A DNA stretch of 64,000 nucleotides, taken from contig LS997563.1 in the NCBI GenBank assembly GCA_000469685.2, positions 34,192,468-34,256,467 on the forward strand, given 5' to 3'. This DNA is from Haemonchus contortus (lineage: Eukaryota; Nematoda; Chromadorea; Rhabditida; Trichostrongylidae). A program made the position numbers and the translations under genes. Under the pieces are notes generated by a model. That model ran no database searches. It saw nothing but the letters and a program-made list of their open reading frames with translations, and was not told the DNA's origin. Shown here piece by piece: positions 3,601-48,775 of the stretch (its first letter is position 1; the number at the start of each line of letters is the position of its first letter).

Positions 3601-4288
3601 CGGAATGGGCGTCATGCAAGTCAAGAACATATTTGACAACCATAGTCGAGCGGTTTTTACAAGCTTCATTCGAAAAGGTCAAAAGGCATAATTCTTGGGA
3701 AATTACAAATTATGTATAACGAAAGACGATCGTTTGGATGCCACAAAAGTGTGAATGAAACTTGGTTTCGTAGCATTCTGAAAAAACAATTAAAATAAGG
3801 ATAAACATTTTAGTTGACACCAGTACATATCATAGACGTATGCATGTATAAATTGACTGCTAATTAATAGCTGTGACATCAGTAGAATTCAAATGTTGTT
3901 TTGCCCACACAATACTGTAATTACAAGCTTGTCGAGGTTTGATAGTTTGCTTTGCATGAGGAATAAATAATCAGGAGTTCTGTACAGACCTTCCTTTTTC
4001 TGTTTTACCCTGAAAATTATTTTCATGCGGAACAAAATATTATGTTTATCCAGACACCTGAGAAATATTTCATGTGGGACAAATTGTGATGTTTATCCAG
4101 ATACCTGAGAAACCTCATCTTTGATTTTTGAGCAGAGTCTTCGTGCGACTGCAATGATGGAAAAAAAAAAGAAATTCCCAGCACTTCTAGGTAATCAAAT
4201 GACAGAATTGAAAGCGTAAACAAGTATTTCTGAAATTCTACCGCTTTTTGGCCAACCATAGATCAGGCGATGCTTTAAACGAATTCGA
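600..4288. repeat. Copy 1 of a ~3.6-kb direct duplication
   Basis: This block is colinear, at a visibly diverged level, with 31390-34860 in the same orientation. Anchor pairs include 836-1095 with 31463-31760, 1840-2040 with 32250-32460, 3120-3700 with 33270-33960, and 3980-4285 with 34610-34860. Short indels are common and no frame is conserved between the copies, so it is probably non-coding: an old segmental duplication or two copies of an unrecognised long repeat. The CR1 LINE begins where the similarity to copy 2 stops. A TTCAA microsatellite lies at about 2404-2425. Confidence 0.7.
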
Positions 4289-4552
4289 CAAGTGCGGCGG
4301 CCAGTGCGGCGGCGTTTTCTTTGTTCTCGTTATATTCTCAATCCTTCTTGGATATACTTCAATTCCCTTTCGTTTCATCTTTCTCTGCGTGACTCATTTA
4401 CCCCATTATTGTTGTCTTAGATATTGCTGTTGTGATAACTTGATAAAGTACTATCTTTATCAGTTTCACTTTGCTTATTTATATCCGGGGTGGTCTCTTT
4501 GGTGTCGTTGTTGGTTTCGATCGATTGTGTTGCGCGGCCTGTTTAATTGATC

Positions 4553-5257
4553 ATGGCGCCAAAGGTAGACCGTGTTAGCAAGAGAAAGGAAACTATGAGT
4601 AAATCCAGTGAATCTGAGCAAGCTAAACAAGTGGAGTCTAGCCAAAGCCCAAGTGCGGATATGTCGGATGTGGATTACGGTAAGCTATCAGCTAGTCAGC
4701 TCATCAGAGTAGTTTTGGAGCACAACAAGGATCCTCTTATCGAGAGAATGCTGCTGGTGCTTGCCGAGAAAATTTCAAAGGATGTGGCTGAGTTTGTAGA
4801 AGCCGATAAGCGGTCAAAAAGTATTGTTATTAGTGGTGTTGAGGAGGCCCCCTCCGGGATGCGCCCATCTGATAGGCAGAAAGACTTGGAGGTTAAAGTC
4901 ACCAACATACTTGATGCGCTCAACGTGGAGTGTCGTCCCGTTGAACTGTACCGTTTGGGGAAGGAAGACCCCGCACGTCCCAGATTAGTTAAGGTCCTCC
5001 TCCCCTCACGTTCCTTTTGGAGGACGGCGCTTTCTAATGCAAAGCTGTTGAGGTCAGCTGGTTTTCCAAACATTTATGTCAGGAGAAGTATGACTCAAGA
5101 CGAGCGGAAGCGCGACTATGAGCTAAGACAGCAAGCTAAAGAACGTAATAAAGGTAAACCTACTCGTGAATGGGTGGTCTACAGGGGCGAGCTTAGATCT
5201 ATTTCTGAGCTTAGAGCTATAAATTCGGGAAACGCACAGCGAAGCATGGTCCTGTAA
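4553..5257 (+). CDS. CR1 LINE ORF1 protein
   Basis: This is a 234-residue protein, presumed to be the nucleic-acid-binding ORF1 product that packages element RNA. The start is the ATG at 4553; an upstream TTG would add only two residues. The N-terminal 60 residues are Ser/Lys/Glu-rich and disordered-looking. The middle, with IVISGVEEA followed by a region predicted to be beta-alpha, and then YRLGK and RPRLVKV, resembles the RRM-like fold of LINE ORF1 proteins. The C-terminus is basic (RRSMTQDERKRDYELRQQAKER). The degraded copy near 45567 begins with nearly the same residues, showing that this start belongs to the family. The reading frame is intact. Confidence 0.8.
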   Translation: MAPKVDRVSKRKETMSKSSESEQAKQVESSQSPSADMSDVDYGKLSASQLIRVVLEHNKDPLIERMLLVLAEKISKDVAEFVEADKRSKSIVISGVEEAPSGMRPSDRQKDLEVKVTNILDALNVECRPVELYRLGKEDPARPRLVKVLLPSRSFWRTALSNAKLLRSAGFPNIYVRRSMTQDERKRDYELRQQAKERNKGKPTREWVVYRGELRSISELRAINSGNAQRSMVL

Positions 5258-6884
5258 ACGGTAACGCCTTTAATTGTTTCCTCTTTAATGCACGTAGTTT
5301 AGTGAAAAAAATCCACCATTTACATTTATTTTTGAGTACTTTCAAGCCAGATGTTGTTGTAATTACCGAGACATGGCTAAAATCAAATGTAACTGATTCC
5401 GAATTGACTGCCAACCTTCCGTACAATGTCTACAGGCATGACCGCAAAGGTAGACGTGGGGGTGGGATATGCTGTCTAGTCAGCTCTTTTATAATTTGCA
5501 AAGAGGTAAATGTTCGTATAGAACTTATGCCTGATGTTATTTGCGTTGAGTTCCTTAACGGGCTATTTCCTAGTTCCTTAAGACTAGTTGCTGTCTACCG
5601 CCCACCAAATATTTCTCCTGGTGATGATGCCTCTTTCATTGAGTTCCTTTCGGATATATGTTCGTCCTCAAGTCATACCTTGCTGATTGGTGATTTTAAT
5701 CTTAGTATTGACTGGCCTTCTAAGATGCCACGGAATCATTCCTCCGGCCTGTATCTCCAGTTTTTTGACAACTACGGGTTCGTGCAATACGTGACTCACC
5801 CTACTCTCGGGTCCAACATTTTAGACCTAGTATTGTGCTCCGCACCACTCGTCACTGATGTGTCCATACTTCCCCCCTTCTCTAATGCCGATCATAATGT
5901 AGTGACATTCAAGGTTATCCAAACGATTCCTTCACATCTCCCTATACCTGTCCCGGATTTCGTCAATCTTGACTATAGGAAGTTGGATGCCTTCTTGCAC
6001 TGCATTGACTGGTGGGCGGTTTTCGACAACTATACTTCTATCAATGATGTTTACAAGCGATTCTGTTTGGTGATTTATTCTGCTCTCTCTTACTTCGTTG
6101 CATTCAAGCTTCCACCTCAGCCACATCCCACATACCCTCCACATATTGTAAACTTATTGGCCCAAAAGCAACGTCTTTTTCGTTCACGCTCAGATCCTGT
6201 GAATGACGAGTTATTCCAGAAAGTTAGTAAAGATCTTGATATTCATGTTAGGAAATTCATGGAGAATCGAGTAAAGCGGCTCTCAACTAAGTCTAACTTC
6301 AAAGGTCTTTTTCGCTTTATTAAGCACAGAGTTAGGCCTTCTTCAGGATTACCCGTGCTTTCCGATCCCTATGGTTCTTTCTTCATCTCTGATGTTGAGA
6401 AAGCCGAGGCTCTAGGAAACTACTTCTCTAGTGTTTTCTCACATGATGATTCTAACGACGGTTTCGAAATGAATAGTCAAATCCGAATCAATCACCGTCT
6501 GGAGCATATGTTCTTCCACCCTCAGGATGTTTACAAGGTGCTGGTGCACCTTAAGCCCTCTATGGCTGAGCCCTATGATGGCATCCCTCAGATTCTTTAT
6601 CGTAAATGTGCGAGCTCACTCTGTCAGCCTTTGACGCATATTTTCAACTTATCTATGCTTCTCGAAGAAGTTCCTGACATTTGGAAAGAATCAATAGTTA
6701 CAGCGATTCCTAAGAAATCCGACAGTAAATTTTTATCCGATTTCCGGCCCATCAGTATCACTCCCACAGCTTCCAAGGTCATGGAGAAACTTATTAGAAA
6801 TAGGATGCTTGGCTGGCTTCTGAAATTTAATGTCATTCCGGAGGAACAACACGGCTTCCTGAGCGGGGCCTCCACTGCATCTAA
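5215..6884 (+). pseudogene. CR1 LINE ORF2, 5' part: endonuclease and start of reverse transcriptase
   Basis: The frame is open from 5215 to the insertion. It encodes an APE-type endonuclease, with FNARSL near 5284, ITETWL near 5359, YRPPN, GDFN near 5690, ILDLVL, and a closing ADHN. The first reverse-transcriptase blocks follow (AIPKKSD, FRPIS, EEQHGF). The protein is cut at 6884 by the TA-flanked fold-back; beyond it the frame continues at 8454 in the same phase. No ATG occurs in this frame upstream of 5527, which lies beyond the first catalytic motifs, so translation must begin by frameshift, reinitiation or a non-AUG codon. The ORF1 stop (5255-5257) lies inside the open frame. As it stands the gene is broken. 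Confidence 0.8.
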
Positions 6885-7319
6885 TACAGTGTGTTTCAAA
6901 AGTATGTGCACACCCAACATTTTGTTTTTTTTGGATTACCATTGCTTTTTGTAACCTGTGACCTTCACCATTCAATTCCTTGTGTGCGATCACCTTCGAA
7001 CACTTATTCTGAGAGAACATCGTAGCTGCTAACATAATTTTTTATTAAAGAAAATTTTCTCCTTTGTTTCAAAAGTATGTGCACACTTAGCAAAAAACAA
7101 AAATATAACCGAGATCAGGAATCAATAGGGTCACCCAAATTTCTGTAGAGGTTATCGACTACGAGAAATCGTTTGAGAATGGTTTCGCTACGGTAGGTTC
7201 TTCAGTTTCCTTTAAAATGAAAAATTTCGAGTGTGCACATACTTTTGGAGTGGCAACTGGGCCGCTCTTTTTCATAGATTGCTTGATTCATTCAAGACCC
7301 TGGCAGCTATTGCTCACAA

Positions 7320-7788
7320 CCTATTCCTGGCCGTCCGCGTATTCTGACTGCTCAGGACAACAGAAGGATAGCCCGTCTTGTGGCGAACACTTCTTTGTCT
7401 GTGAGTCAGGTCCGAGCTCAGATGGGTTTATCAGCCTCGCGTACGACCGTTTGGCGCCCTATCCGCTCTGATGAGTATATCACACGAGAGACCATGAAGA
7501 AGGCTACTCGATTCAGTACTCGCCACAAGCTGACAAGGCTGGAGTTTGCTCGTAGGAACATGGCATCATCATGGGTTAAGGTACGGTTGTTCGAGAATTT
7601 TCAGGATTTTCCTATTTTTAGAACAAACAATGTGTTGTACCCATTTTGCTCTTGAGTGATCTTTTCTGATGAAAAGAAGCACCATATCGATGGGCCGGAT
7701 GGATTTTGTCTTTACTGAAGGTACCTTCGTCGAGAGCAACTCGTGTTTTCAAGAAGGAATTTCGGAAAAGGCCCTTTGATGGTCTGCG
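7320..7788 (+). pseudogene. Tc1-family transposase, N-terminal part with first catalytic motif
   Basis: The frame shows a GRPR motif (about 7327-7340), then a helix-turn-helix-like stretch (LSVSQVRAQMG), then RHKLTRLEFAR as in Tc1/Tc3 DNA-binding domains. After WVK at about 7578 an intron-like gap (GT...AG) leads to IFSDEKKHHIDGPDGF (from about 7660), which carries the first DDE aspartate. The frame then meets a stop where Trp is expected and ends at the palindrome switch point, 7788. The second and third catalytic residues are absent, so it is inactive. Confidence 0.75.
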
Positions 7789-8022
7789 CGAGCAAACTCC
7801 AGCCTTGTCAGCTTGTGGCGAGTACTGAATCGAGTAGCCTTCTTCATGGTCTCTCGTGTGATATACTCATCAGAGCGGATAGGGCGCCAAACGGTCGTAC
7901 GCGAGGCTGATAAACCCATCTGAGCTCGGACCTGACTCACAGACAAAGAAGTATTCGCCACAAGACGGGCTATCCTTCTGTTGTCCTGAGCAGTCAGAAT
8001 ACGCGGACGGCCAGGAATAGGT
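7789..8022 (-). pseudogene. Inverted second copy of the Tc1 transposase N-terminus
   Basis: This is the mirror-arm copy of the same HTH/GRPR-encoding segment. It breaks off after LEFAR, exactly where the palindrome arm ends (7789). Because only the 5' half is repeated, the structure looks like a transposon joined to an inverted copy of its own 5' end, not two separate elements. Confidence 0.75.
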
Positions 8023-8453
8023 TGTGAGCAATAGCTGCCAGGGTCTTAAATGAATCAAGCAATCTATGAAAAAGAGCGGCCCAGTTGCCGCTTCAAAAGT
8101 ATGTGCACACTCGAAATTTTTCATTTTAAAGGAAACTGAAGAACCTACCGTAGCGAAACCATTCTCAAACGATTTCTCGTAGTCGATAACCTCTACAGAA
8201 ATTTGGGTGACCCTATTGATTCCTGATCTCGGTTATATTTTTGTTTTTTGCTAAGTGTGCACATACTTTTGAAACAAAGGAGAAAATTTTCTTCAATAAA
8301 AAATTATGTTAGCAGCTACGATGTTCTCTCAGAATAAGTGTTCGAAGGTTATCGCACACAAGGAATTGAATGGGAAGGTCACAGGCTACAAAAAGCAATG
8401 GTAATCCAAAAAAAACAAAATGTTGGGTGTGCACATACTTTTGAAACACACTG

Positions 8454-9648
8454 TATGCTTGATTCAGTTTTCGACTGGACCACAGCCCTTAACAGTGGTG
8501 AAGCTGTTGATGTGATCTTCATAGATCTGTCTAAAGCTTTCGATAAAGTCTGTCATTCGAAGCTCCTCATGAAGCTGGATAGCCTTGGAATCTGTGGGCA
8601 GTTGTACGGTTGGTTCAAGTCTTACTTTAGTTGCAGGTACATGACTGTAAGAGTGGGTCGATCCTTTTCAAAACGGCATGTCTGTCGCAGTGGTGTACCG
8701 CAAGGGAGTGTGCTATCACCCTTGCTATTTCTTATCTATACCATTGATCTCCCAGCTTACATTAAGGCCTCGAGTTTCGTTAAAACCCAAATTTATGCTG
8801 ACGACATCAAGCTATATGCGTCTTATAGTTCTTTGAATACCAATGAAGTTCAACTCGCTCTCAAGCACTCTGTTGAAAGGCTGACAGAATGGGCAGCTTT
8901 GTGGAGCCTCCCTGTTAATCTGAATAAATGCTTCGTTCTGCATCTCGGGGGTGGCCTCCCTTGGAGGTGCTCTATCAACGGAACTGAGTTCGCATGTGTT
9001 CCCTCTGTGAAGGACTTGGGCATACTACTCAGCTCAGATCTTAAGTTCTCTGCTCATATAGATAGGGTCGTTAACAAGGCGTTTGCTGCTTTATTTTTAA
9101 TTTTGCGGAATGTACTGTGCAATGATCATAGAATCCTAGTGCGACTCTACAAGGCCTATGTTCTTCCACACCTAGAGTATTGTTCTCAGGTGTGGAGCCC
9201 ATGGCAAAAGAAGGATATATGCAAACTGGAAAAAGTTCAACAAACTTTCACTAGGATATTACTTCTTCGATCCTTTCCCAAAACCGAGTATAAGTCTATT
9301 CCTCGCTATGAGGAGCGCTTGAAAATGTTTGGCTTGACGAGTCTTAGACAAAGGCGTGTAGTAAGTGATCTCGTCTTTTGTTTCCGCATCATCCGAAAGG
9401 AAGTTAAGCTTAGAGCCAGCAAGTACTGGACCTTTCGTCCGAATAGTGCCAGGTCTAATGGGTTCATTCTCCAAAGTAGGAGAATACGCAGGTTTCGTTA
9501 TACGCAGACATTCAATTCGTTTTTCTTCCGTACGACGAGATGGCTTGAGAAGCTTCCTCGTGAGGTACTGCAATCGCCAAATGGTGAGTCCTTTAGAAGA
9601 AAATTGAGGAAAATCGATTTGATAGAGTTACTTGGCTTGGATAATTGA
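8454..9648 (+). pseudogene. CR1 LINE ORF2, 3' part: reverse transcriptase core and C-terminal domain
   Basis: This continues the reverse transcriptase after the insertion. It has IDLSKAFDK (block A), SGVPQGSVLSPLLF (block B), and YADDIKL (catalytic YADD, near 8792). Thumb and CR1-type C-terminal blocks follow, including LPHLEYCSQVWSP, and it ends near FRRKLRKIDLIELLG. It is open to the stop at 9646-9648. The phase matches that of 6884, since the inserted segment plus one TA is 1569 bp, a multiple of three. Together the two parts span about 925 codons from 5302, the usual length for CR1 ORF2. Confidence 0.83.
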
Positions 9649-10041
9649 GCTCATTTCATCGTGTATTTGCAGGCTTTCTACAGGCTCTCTATTTTCCATT
9701 TCGTGCTTCCAGTCTCGTCAGCTTGTTGTGGTGTGAACTAACGTGTAGTATAAGGATAACGGATACTGCAGCGGACGGTGTTTGTTGGCTTTTCCTGTGC
9801 ATGGCATTGATGAGTTGCTCCTCGGTTTGATTGAGCTAACAATGTTCGTCTACATTGTTCTGTGTTCTTTCTAACTGGTTCTAACTGTCGCTTTGCATAT
9901 GGTGCTGTCTCTTGTTTTGTTGTTATTAGTTTTACCTTTTTGTTTGTTTGTTTGTTTTTCTCATTTCTCAGTTGCTGGGTTGTTATGGTCTAGCTTTTAC
10001 CTTAAGCCCCGTTTTTCCTTTTAGGGTGCACTCTGTGAGTG

Positions 10042-10072
10042 TATAAATAAATAAATAAATAAATAAATAAAT
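10042..10072 (+). repeat. (AAAT)n tail of the CR1 LINE
   Basis: About seven AAAT units follow the LINE 3' UTR. They mark its 3' end, as expected for a short-repeat CR1 tail. Confidence 0.85.
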
Positions 10073-10783: not shown

Positions 10784-10971
10784 CACAGAAAAGAAAATTC
10801 AGTCCGACACTCGGCCCTTACAGTAACCCTCTGGATTGCCCACATCCCAACCCCCTGTCCTTGCCGCAGGCCCTTTTCGACGCGTCGTATATGTGACGGG
10901 TGAAAATTTGCGTTTTAACACGTGTCGGATTACTGTAAGAGCCGAGTGCCGGACTGAATTTTCGTTTCTGT
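10784..10971. mobile_element. 188-bp hAT-like fold-back MITE
   Basis: Inverted ends of about 45 bp (left starts ACAGAAAAGAAAATTCAG, right mirrors ACAGAAACGAAAATTCAG) surround a 90-bp centre. The element is flanked by the perfect 8-bp direct repeat CCTAGCTA at 10776-10783 and 10972-10979. An 8-bp duplication with CAG-like ends is the signature of hAT elements. It has no coding capacity. Confidence 0.85.
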
Positions 10972-18500: not shown

Positions 18501-21500
18501 AACTGAAGATTAGACCCTATGGTGGAGGAACGTCGATTTCTTCGATCGATGTAGACATTTAGCTCAAGTGCTTGAAATTGTTGTTCTTTGATCTTTGTAA
18601 ACGTTTTCATTTCTTTAAAGAACGCCATTGTTTAGGGATACCTTTGATCCGATAAGGGCTTCATGTTTCGTTCATGCTCAAGTTCCCAACGCTTATCTGT
18701 CTCAGATCGCAAAGTAAATGCCAACGCGCCTCCGAATCCGTTGGCATGCGCTATGTTTCATTCTACTCTTCCTACCATCGGCGCACCTCCTGTGTTACTG
18801 TGCCGTACTCTCATCTTCTTCTTCTTATTCTTTAGCGTTTGTCCCGCTTATAAGCGGGGTCCGCTTTTCTGATATGTTGACGCCACTTCTCCCGGTTGAA
18901 CGCTTGATCGGGGTGGATGTTAACCGCTTTAAGATCTTCGTGCAACGTATCGAGCCACCGCTGCTTTGGACGTCCTCTAGGCCGCTTTCCGGACACATCA
19001 AGGTTGAGACTGATCTTACGGACACTGTCGTTCTTTGCGCGAAGGGTATGACCATACCATCGTAGACGAGCTTCGCGCATTTTATCGACAATGGGCGCAA
19101 CACCGAATCGCTCCCTGATGGCGTCATTACTTATACGGTCTAAGCGTGTTACTCCGGCTGTCCAGCGCAGCATTTTGGTCTCCATCACGCTGAGACGGGC
19201 TTCAACCTCTTTCGTTGCAGGCCAGCATTCAGCGCCATATATCGCGACTGGCCGGATGACGGTTCTGTAGATCTTGGACTTAAGACGCTCAGGGATGTTC
19301 TTATCGCAGAGTACGCCAGTCATTGAGCGCCACTTCAACCACGCTGCATTCACGCGAGAATTCGTTTCAAAACCCAGGCTGCCGTCAGACGCAATTGCCG
19401 ATCCAAGGTACTTGAAGGTTGTTGTCCGTGTGAGCTCAGTGCCATTGATCTTGATAGAGCCTGGCTCGCTCGAATCAGTGGTCAAGTACTCAGTCTTTTT
19501 GACGTTTAACCTGAGCCCGAACATAGCCAGACGGTCGGACCAGGTCTGCACCTGTGACTCGAGCTCGCTTTTGTCTTCGCTGGCGAGCATCACATCATCG
19601 GCATAAAGAAGCGTCCACGGAGCCGGCTTCTGGAGGTCTTTTGTGATGGTATCCATGACGACAACAAAAAGCAGTGGGGATAGCGCAGAGCCTTGGTGTA
19701 CTCCGACGGAAATGGGAAATTCCGCCGATGTGCCCGCTGCCGTTTGCACTCGACTCTTTGGGCTAGTGTAAAGGATGCGCACCCACTCAATGAGCTCTTC
19801 GGGTACGCCATGCTGTCGTAAGGCATACCATATAACGTCACGTGGAACGCGGTCGAAAGCCTTCTCTAAGTCTAGAAAGGCAAGATGTACCGGTCTACGT
19901 TTCTCGCGATGCTTTTCTAGAAGGAGGCGAGCGGCGTGTATGGCGTCGATGGTGCTACAACCAGCTACAAAACCACACTGATTAGTGGTCAGCTCGACGA
20001 TATCCCGGATACGACTGTCTACAATCCGCTCAAAGATTTTCATGCTGTGCGAAAGCAAGCGAATCGGACGGTAGCAAGTGCAGTCCCCAAGGCTGCCCTT
20101 TTTCTTCCAGATAGGAATCGTCGTGCTCTGTTGCCAGCTCTCAGGCACCTTCTTCTCTGCAACGACCTGGTTAAAGAATTCCGTCAACCATCCTGCAGGA
20201 TTCCAGCCTTTCGATTTCCACAAGTCCGCTGCTACGTCGTCAGGACCACTTGCTTTGCCTGACTTCATCTTCTTCAAAGCCGTAATGGTCTCATTCACGG
20301 TTATTCTCTGAACGGGACCGTGTACTGGCGGAGCGCAGGGGATGGCGGGACGAGCGAATTCGTCTGTTGAGATGTTTGCGAAGTACTCTCGCCATCGTTT
20401 CAGTACTTGCCTGCGGTCCGTTAAGAGGCGACCGTTCTCGTCATTTATGCCGAAGAACTTTTCTATATCCTCGGTCTGGCGGTTGCGGGTTTTTGCGAGT
20501 CGGTAAACGTACCGTTCACCATCCCGAGACTCGAGTTTCTTATTAAGATCGGCATAATGAGCTGCCTTCTGAGAAGCAACAGCCTTCTTCGCCTCTTTCT
20601 TCGCTATCTGATAGCGTTGCCAGTTGTCCGCCGTCTTTTCGATAAGAAATTCGTGGTACTGCTTTTTCTTCTCATGGACTTTATCCCTGACATGGTCGGT
20701 CCACAGCCATGTTTGCTTATCGAGCTTCCGCCGTCCAGGCTTGGTCACGCCGAGCTTCGACCGTGCGACCCGGGTTATCGCTTCCGCAGCTCCCTTCCAA
20801 GTTTCGTCGACAGTCGTTACCGCTGGTAACAAAATGCTGGAAACGACGGCCTCTTCTTTCTCCTTCAGTCGCCACCACTTGATTCTCGCAGGCCCGCACC
20901 TTTCTGCTACTTTCGGTTTCGGCGGGGCGATCTTGAACGTACAAATCAGTGGTCGGTGTTGTGTTGCGACCGTTTCATAGGGAACTGTCTTTGCGTCTGT
21001 TACGAGCCCCTGGTCGCGGTGCCTGACAAGGACAAAATCAATTTGCGTTCTGTTCTCACCGCTATAGAAGGTGATGAGATGAGAGTCACGTTTGCGAAAT
21101 CTCGTGTTTACAATGGCGAGATTATGCGAGTCCGCATATTCGAGAATTCGCTCGCCATCAGTGTTACGTGACCCATATCCGAAACCCCCATGGCAGCTAT
21201 GACCGTCTTTCGTAGCGCCCACGTGACCGTTGAGGTCACCTGCGACAACTATGGCTTCTTGTAACGGTACTTCAGCTGTCTTCTCATCTAGCAGGTTCCA
21301 GAACTTGTCCTTGGTCTGCTCGGAGCATCCAGTCTGCGGAGCATAAGCTGAGAAGAGATGGTATTTTTGGCGTTCGATGACTACCACGATCTTCATTAGG
21401 CGGTCATCGAAGCGTTCCACGCTTACTATCGAGTCACGGAACCGTTCAGAGACTATTATCCCGACGCCGTTGGTGGTTTTTGGGCCACCACAAAGAACGG

Positions 21501-24500
21501 CTTTGAAGCCGAGGCCAATGTCCCTGGACTTGCAGCAGGACCACCTCGTTTCCTGCACGGCACAGAAATCAATTCGTCGACGCTCTAGAGCTTCTGCCAG
21601 CTCGTACAAGCGTCCCGTTAATGTGCCAACATTTAAGGTCGCAACGCGGGTCTTCCATACGTTGCGTAGCTTTCGGACTAGCTTAGTTGCCCCCCGATGC
21701 CGTCCTTGCATCGGAGACCCTCGCATACTTTTCACACTCACCGGGCCTTGCGAGTGCGCGTCGGCTCCCGCGGACGCCGTAGCATTACATCGAACTTCTT
21801 CAAGTGACATTAACATTTTTGATGTGACTGGGGTGTTCGTAGGCCGGCCTGTCACGGGGCCTGTCGCCTGCATTCGAATGTCCGTGGTCAGCTCAGCCCA
21901 CAGAGTGGGCAGTTTCCAGTGGCACCCCTTGGAGGAACGGACTTCGCCACCTGTGCCGTACTCTCATACTCGAATAAATCTTATTTGCCGTCTAACCCCG
22001 TATTGGAATCGAAGCACCGGCTGTCGGGAAGTCTTTCTCTGGTGCATCGGCGGGGAAGGCCAACAATCAACAGTAGCAGTCCTATCGAAGAGATAAATAA
22101 AGGAAATCAACATCCAGGTGCTCACGGCTATGACAAAATTGCATTCTTCTCTGGATGCAGCTTCGGTCATCTTGGAACGCGATAGACGTGAGGCGCCAGC
22201 TGTAAACCTTAACGGAGGGATATAACGCGATGGACGATCTCGAAGGAGCGGAACGCGCACTTATCATCCATGGTGGGGCGTTCCCTCATAGTCGCCTGTG
22301 CCGGAGGGCATAGTCGTGCACGATCAAATAAGAGTCGCAATCCAGGAGAATTTTTTGAACAACTTGGGTAGAGGAGGCAAAAGCTGGCGAAGATGAAAGG
22401 AGTCACAAGAAACTTACGAGAGCGCCTGCGATAACAGGACGCCAACATGCGACAGTAGATCGGAGAGGAAATTCAGCAGCTTCAACGAGTCTGCACTGAT
22501 CTTCTTCAAATCATAGATGATCTATGCGACCTTCGTACCTGTCCACCAAACAGATATGGCTATGGAGCAATTAGAAATGGGAGAGAACGATTTATCCGCT
22601 CTGCCTTGTGCAGAGCAAACGGCAGACATTACTCGGACTCGTATGACGAATTCCCCTCTGTGTTTGTGCGTCGTTGAATGATTAAAGACGGGGGAAGGTG
22701 CTTGAGTGCATTGGATTTTATCGCAGGCAGAGATAAGAGGCTTGTAAGAATACTGTGAGCGCTGCCACCATTGCGGCGAATGCGGCCATCAAACCGCTTC
22801 GTGTAAGCTTTCAGATCGCGGAGACACTGATTCGTGCGTGGCATGGTCTCGTTAAAACAACGGAGCGAATCAACAAGTTGGAGCGCGACCATCAAATCTT
22901 TTAGGACTAGAAGATCGGTAGCTAGGAGTATTGCAGGAGAACCGCGGTTTCTTTGATATATTTAGGCACTTTGGTTTAAGTGCTTGATATTATTACTCTT
23001 TGATCTTTGTCAACGTCTTTATTTCTTTGAGGAATGACATTGGTCGGGGATTCCTTTGGTCTGATAAGGGCTTCGCGTTCTATTTATGCTCAAGTTCCCA
23101 ACGCTTATCTGTGTCATATCGAAAAGCAAATGACAAAGCGCCTACAAATCTAACGGCATGCGCTATGTTTCATTATACTCTTCCTACTATCGGCGCAGCT
23201 CCTCTGTCAGTGCGCCGTGCCTTCATGCTCAAATAGATCTTATTTGCGCTGTATTCGTGTATCGAAATTGAGCTAACGGCTGTCGGGATGTCTTTTTAGA
23301 TCCCCACTGCTACTATGCGATGTCTCGTCTCAAAAGCACGATATTAGCAGCTCTAATTGAGCCCTCGCCCGCTGATTTATTTACTTTCTTCTCGGTAGTT
23401 ATAGAACGCATACTATAAAGAATAAGTCTCTCTTTCTAACACAAATAGTGAAAACTAACCGAGTCCGATTGCTCCCGCGACGTACATTAGTAACGGCATT
23501 AGACAATAGTTCGCACCAACCAACCAAAAGTATCCAGTGAGCAAAGAGTTCACTCCGATCGCACACATGTCGTATAATCCTGATATAGTCTGAGTTTTAA
23601 CAAATCTTGGAGGACATTGATAACATATTCTCATATCAGTGACCGCGATGTGGCCCATCCTTGTAGATGGTGCACACATGGAGAGGAAACTACAGGGAAG
23701 ATGAGGAAAATTCTTCTACAGCAATTCATTTAGGATTTTTTATCCTGTGTGAATCTTTCTGTACAGTATCCATGTGGGACGTATCAGTAACCTCTTTATG
23801 AATGCAGAACAGTGAGAAATGATTGTACCTGACATTTCTTCTCTCTAGCGTTGATCCTGAACCGCCGCAGGGTCCGCTAATCTTGTCGATTCTGCGGCAT
23901 TTTCTGCCTTACCTGCACCTTCGTCGGGTCCTTCTTGTTCACGTGCTGCCACCTCCATTTCAGCAGAGTGAAGCGGTCTTTCGTGATTTTTACGAACGCG
24001 CTAGCTTCTGCTGCCGTCGAGCCTCACCGCTGTCCGATGCCCCTTCTTCGGCGTCTTGTAGCACGATGAATACCAGTGGACTAGCTCGATTACATCCATG
24101 CCTGTTTATTTGGACTTTCACAGCCTGGTCCACGCTGCCCTTAACAACTAAGTCTCTTTCTAGATGTCGGATTTCCTATAAACTTTCGATGGCCGGGTTC
24201 GTCTACGATTGACTCCGTGCAATATTCGAAGCCAAAGAATTTGGTCTTCTTCACGTTCAGCCAGAGCTCATACGCCAGCCCTTTCTGCAGCTTGTACTGA
24301 GGTTCTTTTTTGCTCTCCTCTATAATGTGAAAGTGTCAAGGAGAGGCTTTAGTGGTCCATTCAGGAGTTCGTTTGTGATGAAATGCTCTGTCAGGGGAAC
24401 ACTCACAGGTTTAGAGCTGATCCCTGGTGTATCCCAACCCGTGACTTCTTTTGTTGTGGCTAGGTCTTGCGGAGTTGGTATTGCTGTTGTGGACCTATCG

Positions 24501-45147: not shown

Positions 45148-48100
45148 GCGGCTGCTTTTCTCCTAGTCACAATCTTCCCAACATTTCGTGCATATATTTC
45201 GTTTCATTGCCTTTCTTGCAACTTCTTCTAGACTCATTTACTTCCATTCTTGGTGCCACTGGTTTTGCTGTTGTGAGAATTCTTTATCAGAGTCTCTCAC
45301 GAGGAAGGTCTTCAGGGCGTGGGACGCTTTTCGAAAATGGTTTTTTGCATGGTATAGGGGCATAAGCACTGCATATATAAAACTATGGCCCATTTCCGCT
45401 GAATGGCCTTCTGAATGCCAAAAAAGGGAAGAAAAATTTTTGTCAAAAATTGCCGTTCTAACCCACTAAGCGTCGTTTGTCGTTGTCAGCAGCATAATAA
45501 TTCCACTGTTTGCTTGTTTTCAGTAGGGGTTCCGATCGACTTTTTGCAATTTCTGATCGATTGGTAATGGCGCCAAAGGTAGATCATCTCCGTCGAAGGA
45601 AGGAAACTATGGATAAATCCAGTGAATCTGTGTCAGCGAATCAAGTGAATTTCGACCAAGGTTCAAATGCGGGTTCGTCAGATGTGGATTGTGGTATGCT
45701 TTCCACTTGTACAGTAGCTCCAGAGCACAACAACGGCACACCTATCGAGAGGATACTGCTTTCCTTATCGGAAGCTCAAAAACATGTGACTGGGTTTGAA
45801 GGAGCCAATAAGCGTTCCAAGACTATTGCTCACAGCGATTTTCATGAAGCTGCATCCGATGCGCACATGGCTGAATCAAATCAAAGGTAATAATCGATTC
45901 CAAATGGACCGCACGTGCCCAATGTAATATGCGTTTAGTTTTTTAGCGGTCTACTTCCGTCTTCTTTGGGACTAGTTGCTATCGCTTATCGAATACTTCC
46001 CCCTATTGATAATGATTCTTTTATAGAGTTTTTTTTACCGTGCTGGTTAGTGATTTCGACTTAAGTATTGATTGGCTTACTAAGGTGCCACGAAATATTC
46101 CTCGGCACTGTACCTTCAGTTTTGCGGCAACTACGAGATCATTCAATACGCCACCTCTCCTACTCTGGGACAACATCCTAGTTTTATGCTCCTCATCATT
46201 CTTCCCTGTCTCCATACTTATTTCCTTCTCTAATGCCGGTCATAGTGGTGTGGGTTCGAAGTCATCCAAACGAACCTTTTCTGTCCTCTTATGCCTGTTC
46301 CGGACATTGTGAATCTTGTTTATGGGAGGCTGGATACATTCTTCCACAGCATTGTAGATGTATACAGGCGATTCTCCTTGGCAATTTATTCTTTCGTTGC
46401 ATTTGAGCTTCCGCCTCAGCCATATCCCAAGTACTATTCACACATCGTGAAATTGTTGGCCCAAAAGCCCCATCTTTCTCGAGGGCCCTCTGATCCTTCG
46501 AATGATGAGTTGTTTGGGGAAGTTTGCGTGGATCCTGATATTCATATCGAGAAATTTATGAGAAATATAGCGATTTGGGATTCCATGAAGAGTAGAGTAA
46601 AGCGGCTTTCAACCAAGTCATACTTTCGCTCTTAAAGAATGCTTTCGCTTCATCACACAGAGCAAAATATTTATAAGGATTACCTAAGCTTTCCGATTCC
46701 ACTTGTTCCCTCTTCCTCTCGGAGCCGGGCTCTTGGTAACGACCTCGCTAGCATTTTCTCTCGCAGTAATTCTAGCAATGAATTTTCAGTGAGCAGTCAC
46801 ATCCGGATTGACCACCACCGGAGCGTACTATCATCAGCCCTCACGCTGTTTTCCAAGTACGGTGGAACTCTAGCCTTCGATGACTGAACCCTATGTTGGG
46901 ATCCCACAAATTCTTTTCTGTAAGTAAGCGAGCTCGCTCTGTCAGCCTTTGACGCATATTTTTAACTTATCCAAGCTCCTTGAAGAATCCCGTGACATCA
47001 GGAAGGAATCAATAGTTTCAGCTATTCTAAGAAATCGACAGTAGATTGCCGTCTGTTTTTCGGCCAATCAGCATCACTCTTAGTGCTTGCAAGCTTATTG
47101 AGATACCTGATTGGTCTCAAACATACAATGCCATCCCGGATGAGTAACATTGCTTTCTGTGTGGGGTCTCCACTACTTCCAATCTCGTTAGTGCGTGTTT
47201 TGACTTGACCATAACTCTTATCAAGGGAGAAAAGGCTGATGTGATTTTTATAGACCTGCCCGAAGCTCTTGTTAGGACCTGTCTATCCGAACTCTCTCAT
47301 GAAGGTTAATAGCTTTGGCATCAATGATCAGATGCATGGCTGATTTAGATCCTACTGTGGTCATAGGCATGCGACTGTAAGACTGGGTCTAACCTTCTTG
47401 AAACGACATGTCTGCCCCAGTGTATTACCGCAAAGCATTGTGCTGCCATCCTAGTTTCTCATTTATACCACTGATCTCCTACCCTTCATTAAGAGTTCTA
47501 GTCTTGTTAAGACTCAGTTTATGCTGACGACATCAAAATTTGCGCCTAAACTATTTTATGTGGCCTCTCTTGAAAATGCCCTATCATTGGAGCTGTGTTC
47601 GCCTGGGTTCCTATGTTGAAGTCTTGGGTGCACTATTCAATTCGGATCTGAAGTTGCATGCTTATCTAGACGATGTTGCTAATAAGGCAATTGCTGCTCG
47701 ATTTCGTATTCGTCAAATGGTCGTCGTAACGTCAAACGCTATGTAGTTGTCATAGGTTGCGAATTTACATGACTTTGAGTAATGCTCCCAAGGGTGTAAC
47801 CCATCTCGGAAGAAGGATATTTCCGAATCATCAACACTGGATATTTGCAAATCAGCAGACTCATTAGGTTATTGTTTCCTAGATATTTTCCCAGAACCGA
47901 ATACATACTCATTACTTGCTAGGATGGAGGCACAGAGAATGGTGCCAGATCTAGTGGGTTCATGCTACAAAATAAGAGGATGCAGAGGTTTCGTCACACG
48001 CATACATTAAATTCGTTATCTTTCCATAAGACGATATGGCTTGAAAGCTTTCTCCCTAAGTGCTGCAATCGTCAAATGGTAAGTCTTCCCAAAGAAAATT

Positions 48101-48775
48101 GAGGAACATGCATTTGTTGAGTTGCTTGGCTTGGATAGATGAGTTCATTTCATATTTTCACCTAGAGGCTATTTATTATTTATTGATCCTTCGTGTTGCC
48201 GATCTCATCGGTATGCTGTGGTTTGGCTATTGATCCTTCGTGTTGCCAATCTCATCGGTATGCTGTGGCCTGACTTTTGTTGGACGGATGACACCACCTC
48301 ATCTTACTTCAAGTATCTCTTCACCTGCTCCTTCGGTCTATATCTACTACCATAATGTCGCTATGGAACGTCTTTGGCTCCTCTTTGAGCATGTGGCTAA
48401 TGAATTGCTTCCTCGGTTGCGATACTTTGTTGTTCATTCAAATAGGTTCCAATTGCCCTGTGCCTTGTTTCGTTGCTTCTTACCTTTTTGTCGTGTTTGT
48501 CTAGTTGCTTGTATCCTGAGTTCGAGTGTATAGTATTAGCTGCTGCTTTCATTTCTTCTATGCAAACATTGATACTTCCTTTCTTGCTTTGTTCCGTGCT
48601 GCCTGGGCTATATTCATGTTCATATCTCTAGTCTCTTCTTTCCATATAGGTATGTAATCCAGCAGACTGCTTTTCGACTCAAATCGGATTCAGTTTGTTT
48701 TGGTCTAGTTTGGTTTTATTCCCTGATCACAACCTTTTGTGGCGCACTCTGTGTGTGTATCAATGAATAAATACT
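45148..48775 (+). mobile_element. Degraded second copy of the CR1 LINE
   Basis: The same family as 4289-10072 runs in the same order. The 5' UTR lies at about 45148-45566. An ORF1 start at 45567 matches the first copy for about 110 codons, then stops at 45890. Endonuclease scraps near 46000-46300 follow (VSDFDLSIDWL, SNAGHSGV), then the linker (VKRLSTKS near 46600), reverse-transcriptase scraps at 46940-47560, and a C-terminal piece and 3' UTR ending in GCGCACTCTGTGTGTGTATC. Many stops, frameshifts and deletions show an old insertion. Confidence 0.85.
45567..45890 (+). pseudogene. CR1 ORF1 remnant
   Basis: It begins MAPKVDHLRRRKETMDKSSES, closely matching ORF1 at 4553. It loses the frame after the ANKRSKT block and ends at a stop at about residue 107, against 234 in the intact copy. 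Confidence 0.8.

Follow-up and report, generated by a model that had tools for sequence, protein, structure and literature searches.

Arms that evolve together in a family of palindromic Tc3-like transposons, one copy of which interrupts a LINE of Haemonchus contortus

In the Haemonchus contortus genome, the two arms of palindromic Tc3-like transposons resemble each other more closely within a copy than left and right arms do between different copies, and occasional arm-to-arm gene conversion would best fit this pattern. One such copy lies in the window, the whole stretch of 64,000 nucleotides that was analysed (contig C2, 34192468-34256467), where it interrupts ORF2 of a LINE. We regard as very probable the account as a whole, namely that a Tc3-like palindrome descended from one founder, that it hit the LINE, and that its arms convert each other between jumps. 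The insertion itself is ordinary and elements of this kind are known; the homogenisation of the arms is unusually measurable.

The 1567-bp palindrome corresponds to a net insertion of 1569 bp (Table 1). Its inverted repeats were 99% alike, both in the arms proper (585 nt; 6968-7552 and 7789-8373) and in the outer segments (83 nt; 6884-6966 and 8374-8456), and comparison of the complete left and right arms, TA included (6885-7552 and 7789-8455), showed that 7 of 667 aligned bases differ. The tip motif, with up to 3 mismatches allowed, was found twice in the 64-kb window, both times at an end of the element, and 0 times in 100 shuffles. Dispersed copies of the motif number three per arm, and the second of these is likely an inner transposase-binding site. 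Tandem Repeats Finder, run at score 30 on 6885-8455, returned 0 arrays.

Table 1. Coordinates of the palindromic element, its parts and the host LINE in the window
Feature	Position	Strand	Basis
LINE copy extent, palindrome and (TAAA)n tail included	4285..10072	+	alignment to L069
LINE ORF1, 236 aa stop to stop	4547..5257	+	
LINE ORF2 before insertion: endonuclease and first part of reverse transcriptase	5215..6884	+	
TA target-site duplication, left copy	6885..6886	.	sequence; single TA in closest empty LINE copies
Palindromic non-autonomous Tc3-like element, 1567 bp	6887..8453	+	inverted repeat, tips, family
Left arm	6887..7552	+	
Terminal motif (tip), left	6887..6913	+	
Arm segment matching right end of L087/L091	6885..7130	+	87-91% identity, 246 bp
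Second tip-motif copy, left arm, 173 bp inward	7065..7086	+	
Arm segment matching left end of L087/L091, inverted	7143..7247	-	85-87%, 105 bp
Third tip-motif copy, inverted, outermost bases lost	7231..7252	-	
Transposase-gene segment matching L087/L091	7252..7786	+	90-91%, about 535 bp
Loop, 236 bp, more transposase-derived sequence to fold-back joint 7788/7789	7553..7788	+	
Right arm, inverted copy of left arm	7789..8453	-	
Terminal motif (tip), right	8427..8453	-	
TA target-site duplication, right copy	8454..8455	.	sequence; single TA in closest empty LINE copies
LINE ORF2 after insertion: remaining reverse transcriptase	8456..9648	+	

Many related copies exist. We searched the H. contortus genome (283,439,308 bases in 7 contigs; one assembly) with a 33-base tip pattern, allowing up to 3 mismatches, and found 156 occurrences on each strand, while the reversed-pattern control gave 0. 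Sixty family copies were fetched, comprising the 40 best-scoring loop matches (the best 40 scored of 197 first-look candidates) and 20 hand-picked tip pairs drawn from the exact-tip places listed, which are part of the 312; the sample is not random. Both exact tip words were present in 46 of the 60 copies, and all 46 had TA on both sides. Arm statistics were calculated for 55 copies, leaving out L031, whose left end was unalignable, the rearranged L045 and L048, and L050 and L064, which contain long inserts. The fold-back joint was ungapped in 52 of these 55, with a mean identity of 96%, which points to a single founder. Copies L010 (C4) and L011 (C3) differ at 3 of 1570 bases and their flanks have no detectable similarity; near-identical copies at such loci show that transposition has been recent. 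The flanks of L010 and L035 are 84-85% alike on both sides, so that these two copies occupy one position of a repeated host sequence. Despite sharing this host-repeat position with L035, L010 has a palindrome near-identical to that of L011 elsewhere.

If there was one founder, the split between left and right arms precedes the split between copies, and the arms of one copy are expected to be no closer to each other than left and right arms taken from different copies. In contrast to this expectation, mean divergence was 6.4% within copies and 9.3% between left and right arms of different copies (n=55), and the own-arm distance fell below the mean left-right distance to other copies in 52 copies (not in the other 3). 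The same minor allele occurred in both arms of a copy 677 times, as compared to a permutation mean of 155 and a maximum of 296 (5000 permutations); with the window copy and one member of each of three near-identical pairs removed, the count was 622, against a mean of 146 and a maximum of 243 (2000 permutations). Alleles exclusive to both arms of one copy numbered 60 over the 55 own pairs, versus 188 doubletons over 5940 cross pairs. In a tree of the 110 arms, 20 of 40 cherries joined a left to a right arm, and 19 of these 20 paired the arms of a single copy (support of 0.8 or more in 16 cases); the other 20 cherries were left-left or right-right. Sharing was slight or absent in many copies, and in L029 and L041, zero non-majority bases were common to both arms.

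Palindromes are hard to correct in long reads, and arm likeness could in principle be an assembly artefact, produced when long-read correction or polishing mixed the arms. All 55 copies do come from one PacBio-based assembly, as the assembly is described in PMC7652881. We consider this explanation unlikely, however, since identical arm differences were preserved at independent loci. The near-identical pairs at separate loci share 30 (L010/L011), 29 (L022/L025) and 48 (L016/L017) arm differences; for L010 and L011, the 30 are shared of 32 and 31, respectively. In addition, 8 of 83 four-carrier alleles were confined to two separate copies, occupying both arms of each (permutation maximum 2; 2000 permutations), two of the eight coming from the near-identical pair L022/L025, which points to a homogenised state that was inherited.

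Arm likeness would instead date the last jump if one arm were copied by snap-back at each transposition, yielding a perfect palindrome. Whole-arm homogeneity in some copies (L009, L052, L047, L051 and the window copy) is consistent with such copying, but the same three near-identical pairs kept their 30, 29 and 48 arm differences through a jump. Because recent jumps keep arm differences, homogenisation is separate from the jump, and jumping does not renew the palindrome. Homogenisation in tracts also argues against snap-back copying, which we regard as highly unlikely: identical runs were longer than random placement would give at p<0.05 in 18 of the 55 copies and at p<0.01 in 12, the remaining 37 being not significant. 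The 7 arm differences of the window copy showed no unusual run (p 0.63).

The clearest tract is seen in L063 when it is set beside its relative L059. The arms of L059 differ at 45 sites in alignment columns 158-535, and at 42 of these the arms of its relative L063 are equal, with the right-arm base of L059 at all 42. The arms of L063 still differ inside the tract at columns 189, 250 and 336; thus, the tract perhaps reflects more than one event. Beyond column 535, arm differences were kept in both L059 and L063 at 10 of 12 L059 sites, and before column 158 at 3 of 11. Along the arm eighths, the ratio of within-copy to between-copy divergence was 0.54-0.66 in eighths two to six, 0.82 at the tip, and 0.79 and 0.88 towards the fold. 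Hairpin copying outwards from the fold is disfavoured by this ratio being lowest in mid-arm, a pattern that an edge effect explains equally.

It is very improbable that the arms of the window copy are near-identical simply through youth and proximity to the founder of the family, with conversion unneeded. Its arm divergence of 1.05% is the lowest of the 55 and the frames of its host LINE are intact, both of which agree with youth, but its arms lie 5.1% and 5.3% from the family majority, and the average arm 5.1%. Its arms carry 34 and 35 departures from that majority, 31 of which are common to both, where 1.8 would be expected. Youth alone therefore cannot explain the neat palindrome. Arm-to-arm overwriting, on the other hand, would account for a near-perfect palindrome in a copy that is as far from the majority as the average arm.

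Occasional arm-to-arm gene conversion is thus the cause that we infer as the best fit to the observed pattern: between jumps, one arm would now and then be rewritten from the other, in tracts that can reach several hundred bases. Less probably, a transposase cut might lead to repair of the broken arm from the opposite arm, a self-mending that could leave a non-coding transposon with two working ends and let its mobility long outlast the founder. If so, arm conversion would result from damage done in transposition and would in turn help palindromic transposons to persist. Long palindromes are considered unstable, and the family bears on why palindromic transposons nevertheless persist. If the likeness of the arms does not tell when an element inserted, it is unsafe to call elements of this kind "young" from near-perfect arms. 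The family offers a natural experiment: dozens of palindromes of probably one origin lie at separate loci of the H. contortus genome, their loops and flanks serve as controls, and it can be measured how fast arm-to-arm conversion proceeds, how long its tracts are and what triggers it.

Judged from its sequence, the element is a non-autonomous Tc3-like derivative of the Tc1/mariner superfamily, with a TA duplication, a transposase fragment, and tips common to the coding relative L091. The peptide encoded in arm and loop (7332-7568) matched residues 57-135 of the C. elegans Tc3 transposase 1u78 (E 2.4e-10), the sole PDB match at E up to 1, and the element encodes this fragment rather than a complete transposase. 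Compared with L087 and L091, each arm is chimeric, made of the right end, the inverted left end and the transposase fragment, followed by the fold-back; the inverted 105-bp match to their left end suggests that the third tip-motif copy is a relic of the parent's other (left) end. L087 and L091 were the only full-length relatives found, and no intact source of the transposase came to light. L091 has the exact tip at both ends and L087 has small changes in both tips. The Tc3-like transposase gene is apparently broken in both, their coding sequence being spread over frames, through either introns or frameshifts, and a residue that, judged by motif, would be expected in the catalytic site is absent. 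As coding partners, L050 and L064 were rejected as members of the palindrome family with other inserted material; judged by eye from its motifs, L050 presumably holds a nested mariner-like transposase relic inside a family copy. The coding candidates L088, L089 and L090 were rejected as palindromes too.

A Tc3-like element would first have been rearranged into a right end, an inverted left end and part of the transposase gene, and the rearranged sequence would next have been extended by its own inverted copy, starting at one fixed joint. The chimeric structure is observed, and we infer the single founder and the order of these steps. The shared tips would presumably be recognised by a Tc3-like transposase, which would move the element in trans.

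The first-pass annotation had correctly recognised a 1567-bp palindrome bounded by TA, with arms that proved 99% alike around a 236-bp loop, but its term "fold-back transposon", where this means membership of the Foldback group, gives way to that of a Tc3-like Tc1/mariner derivative. That the element is of the Foldback type of the Mutator group is scarcely credible, as the long inverted arms and small middle fit it but the 2-bp TA duplication, the Tc3 transposase remains and the lack of a tandem array in the element do not. The 55 full copies measure 1551-1606 bp with both TAs included, a length that rules out a strict MITE; MITEs are generally below 600 bp, with few exceptions, according to the description in PMC4877112.

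Several known systems resemble this family in part. In C. elegans, Tc7 has been titled a Tc1 hitch-hiking transposon. Tc7 is palindromic and non-coding, has a TA target, and has tips in common with a coding Tc1/mariner element. The H. contortus element is likewise a palindrome over its whole length, with a TA target and tips common to a coding element, but it is related to Tc3 and not to Tc1; its arms contain both parent ends and a transposase fragment, and the homogenisation of these arms was measured. With C. elegans Tc3 it shares the TA target and the matching transposase residues, whereas it differs in being palindromic and non-autonomous, with only a partial transposase. Tetris, a Foldback element, similarly has long inverted arms around a middle, and homogenisation of the terminal repeats is described as possible in two of its three complete copies; in contrast to the TA and Tc3 remains of the H. 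contortus element, Tetris has duplications of 8-10 bp and is assigned to the Mutator group (as reported in PMC4079207).

Arm homogenisation has also been described outside transposons of this form. In Caenorhabditis inverted repeats, arm identity is reported to be actively maintained and gene conversion is proposed (PMC1803023). As in these repeats and in the Y-chromosome palindromes cited in the same report, the arms of the H. contortus element are closer within a locus than between lineages, but the systems treated in PMC1803023 are gene pairs and intergenic sequence, whereas the 55 mobile copies in one genome make statistics possible. In bacterial insertion sequences, one terminal repeat is likewise overwritten by the other, although conversion is tied there, in the account of PMC3004938, to inversion of the transposase gene. 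The 2013 H. contortus genome paper (PMC4054779) names, in its text, Mariner-like, MuDR, and Tc1- and Tc4-related elements. Among the titles and abstract openings listed in searches of an open-licence library, we saw neither a palindromic Tc3-like family of H. contortus nor arm conversion in one.

The host LINE of the window copy, a putative CR1 element in the first-pass annotation, was recognised by ORF1, Exo_endo_phos and RVT_1 only. Its relatives were sought with the downstream flank (best 40 scored of 87 first-look candidates; 45 matches), and 18 places were fetched. In fourteen of the 18 the alignment runs through the joined flanks and lacks the palindrome, and the other four (L075, L077, L079 and L080) start downstream of the insertion site and so are uninformative on emptiness. 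The closest relatives fetched, L069-L074, are 96.5-99.0% identical and have one TA in otherwise the same sequence. The context TCTAATATGCTTG is identical in 7 of the 14 empty copies (L069-L074 and L078), a diverged context, TCTAATCT, stands at the empty site of L076, L082, L083 and L084, L085 and L086 are more diverged there, and L081 has small deletions at the site. In two of the 18 relatives, L077 and L084, a diverged palindrome of this family (82-84%) occupies another position, in L084 roughly 90 bases from the one matching the insertion site.

These alignments show that the element jumped into a TA within ORF2 of a LINE that was full-length and had its frames intact. The first-pass annotation had proposed that the LINE was intact when hit and that the insertion was recent; the joined flanks indeed give an ORF2 of 954 codons without a stop, and the palindrome, rather than lying inside most LINE copies, was absent at the site in all 14 relatives that cover it, with continuity across the join wherever the relative did not start downstream. 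Its statement that the frame was left undisturbed is misleading, as ORF2 is stopped by an in-frame stop that the insert brings at 6952-6954, about 22 codons in. The flanking frames are in the same phase across 1569 bp, as it had noted, but this is an uninformative one-in-three coincidence: whatever the insert, the frame of the empty site is unaltered if the target duplication is clean, and all three phases are represented among the net insert lengths of 55 sister copies (remainder 0 on division by 3 in 19, 1 in 23 and 2 in 13).

In comparison with L069-L072, the window LINE shows private substitutions at 22 of 4114 sites, some of which may have arisen on the relatives' side. The corresponding counts are 1 for L069 and 0 for L070, which are near-identical to each other (4 mismatches in 4227), 12 in 1868 for L071, which covers only part, and 24 in 4079 for L072. 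The ORFs hold 19 of the 22; 11 of these 19 are silent, and two of the eight others fall in one codon; the silent share expected from the ORF2 codons without constraint is 22-28% (p 0.0008-0.006). This excess of silent changes suggests that most arose while the LINE lineage was still working, in keeping with an intact LINE at the time of the hit, and the insertion is thus likely younger than most of the private changes and probably recent, as proposed.

Along the LINE ORFs, the private substitutions up to 6705 comprised 9 silent and 1 replacing, and those from 6788 on 2 silent and 7 replacing (Fisher p 0.005, with the split chosen post hoc); the first two changes on the replacing-rich side still lie before the insertion. 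Elsewhere in the window, a second LINE at 18832-21963, on the minus strand, has a 1043-aa ORF, uninterrupted from stop to stop, that includes endonuclease and reverse-transcriptase domains. Two diverged fragments resembling the host LINE in its downstream part were found at about 47198-47536 and 47937-48150 (72% and 80% identity, respectively). Just downstream of the host LINE, at 10785-10971, lies a 45-nt inverted repeat, 91% complementary, with its arms 97 nt apart.
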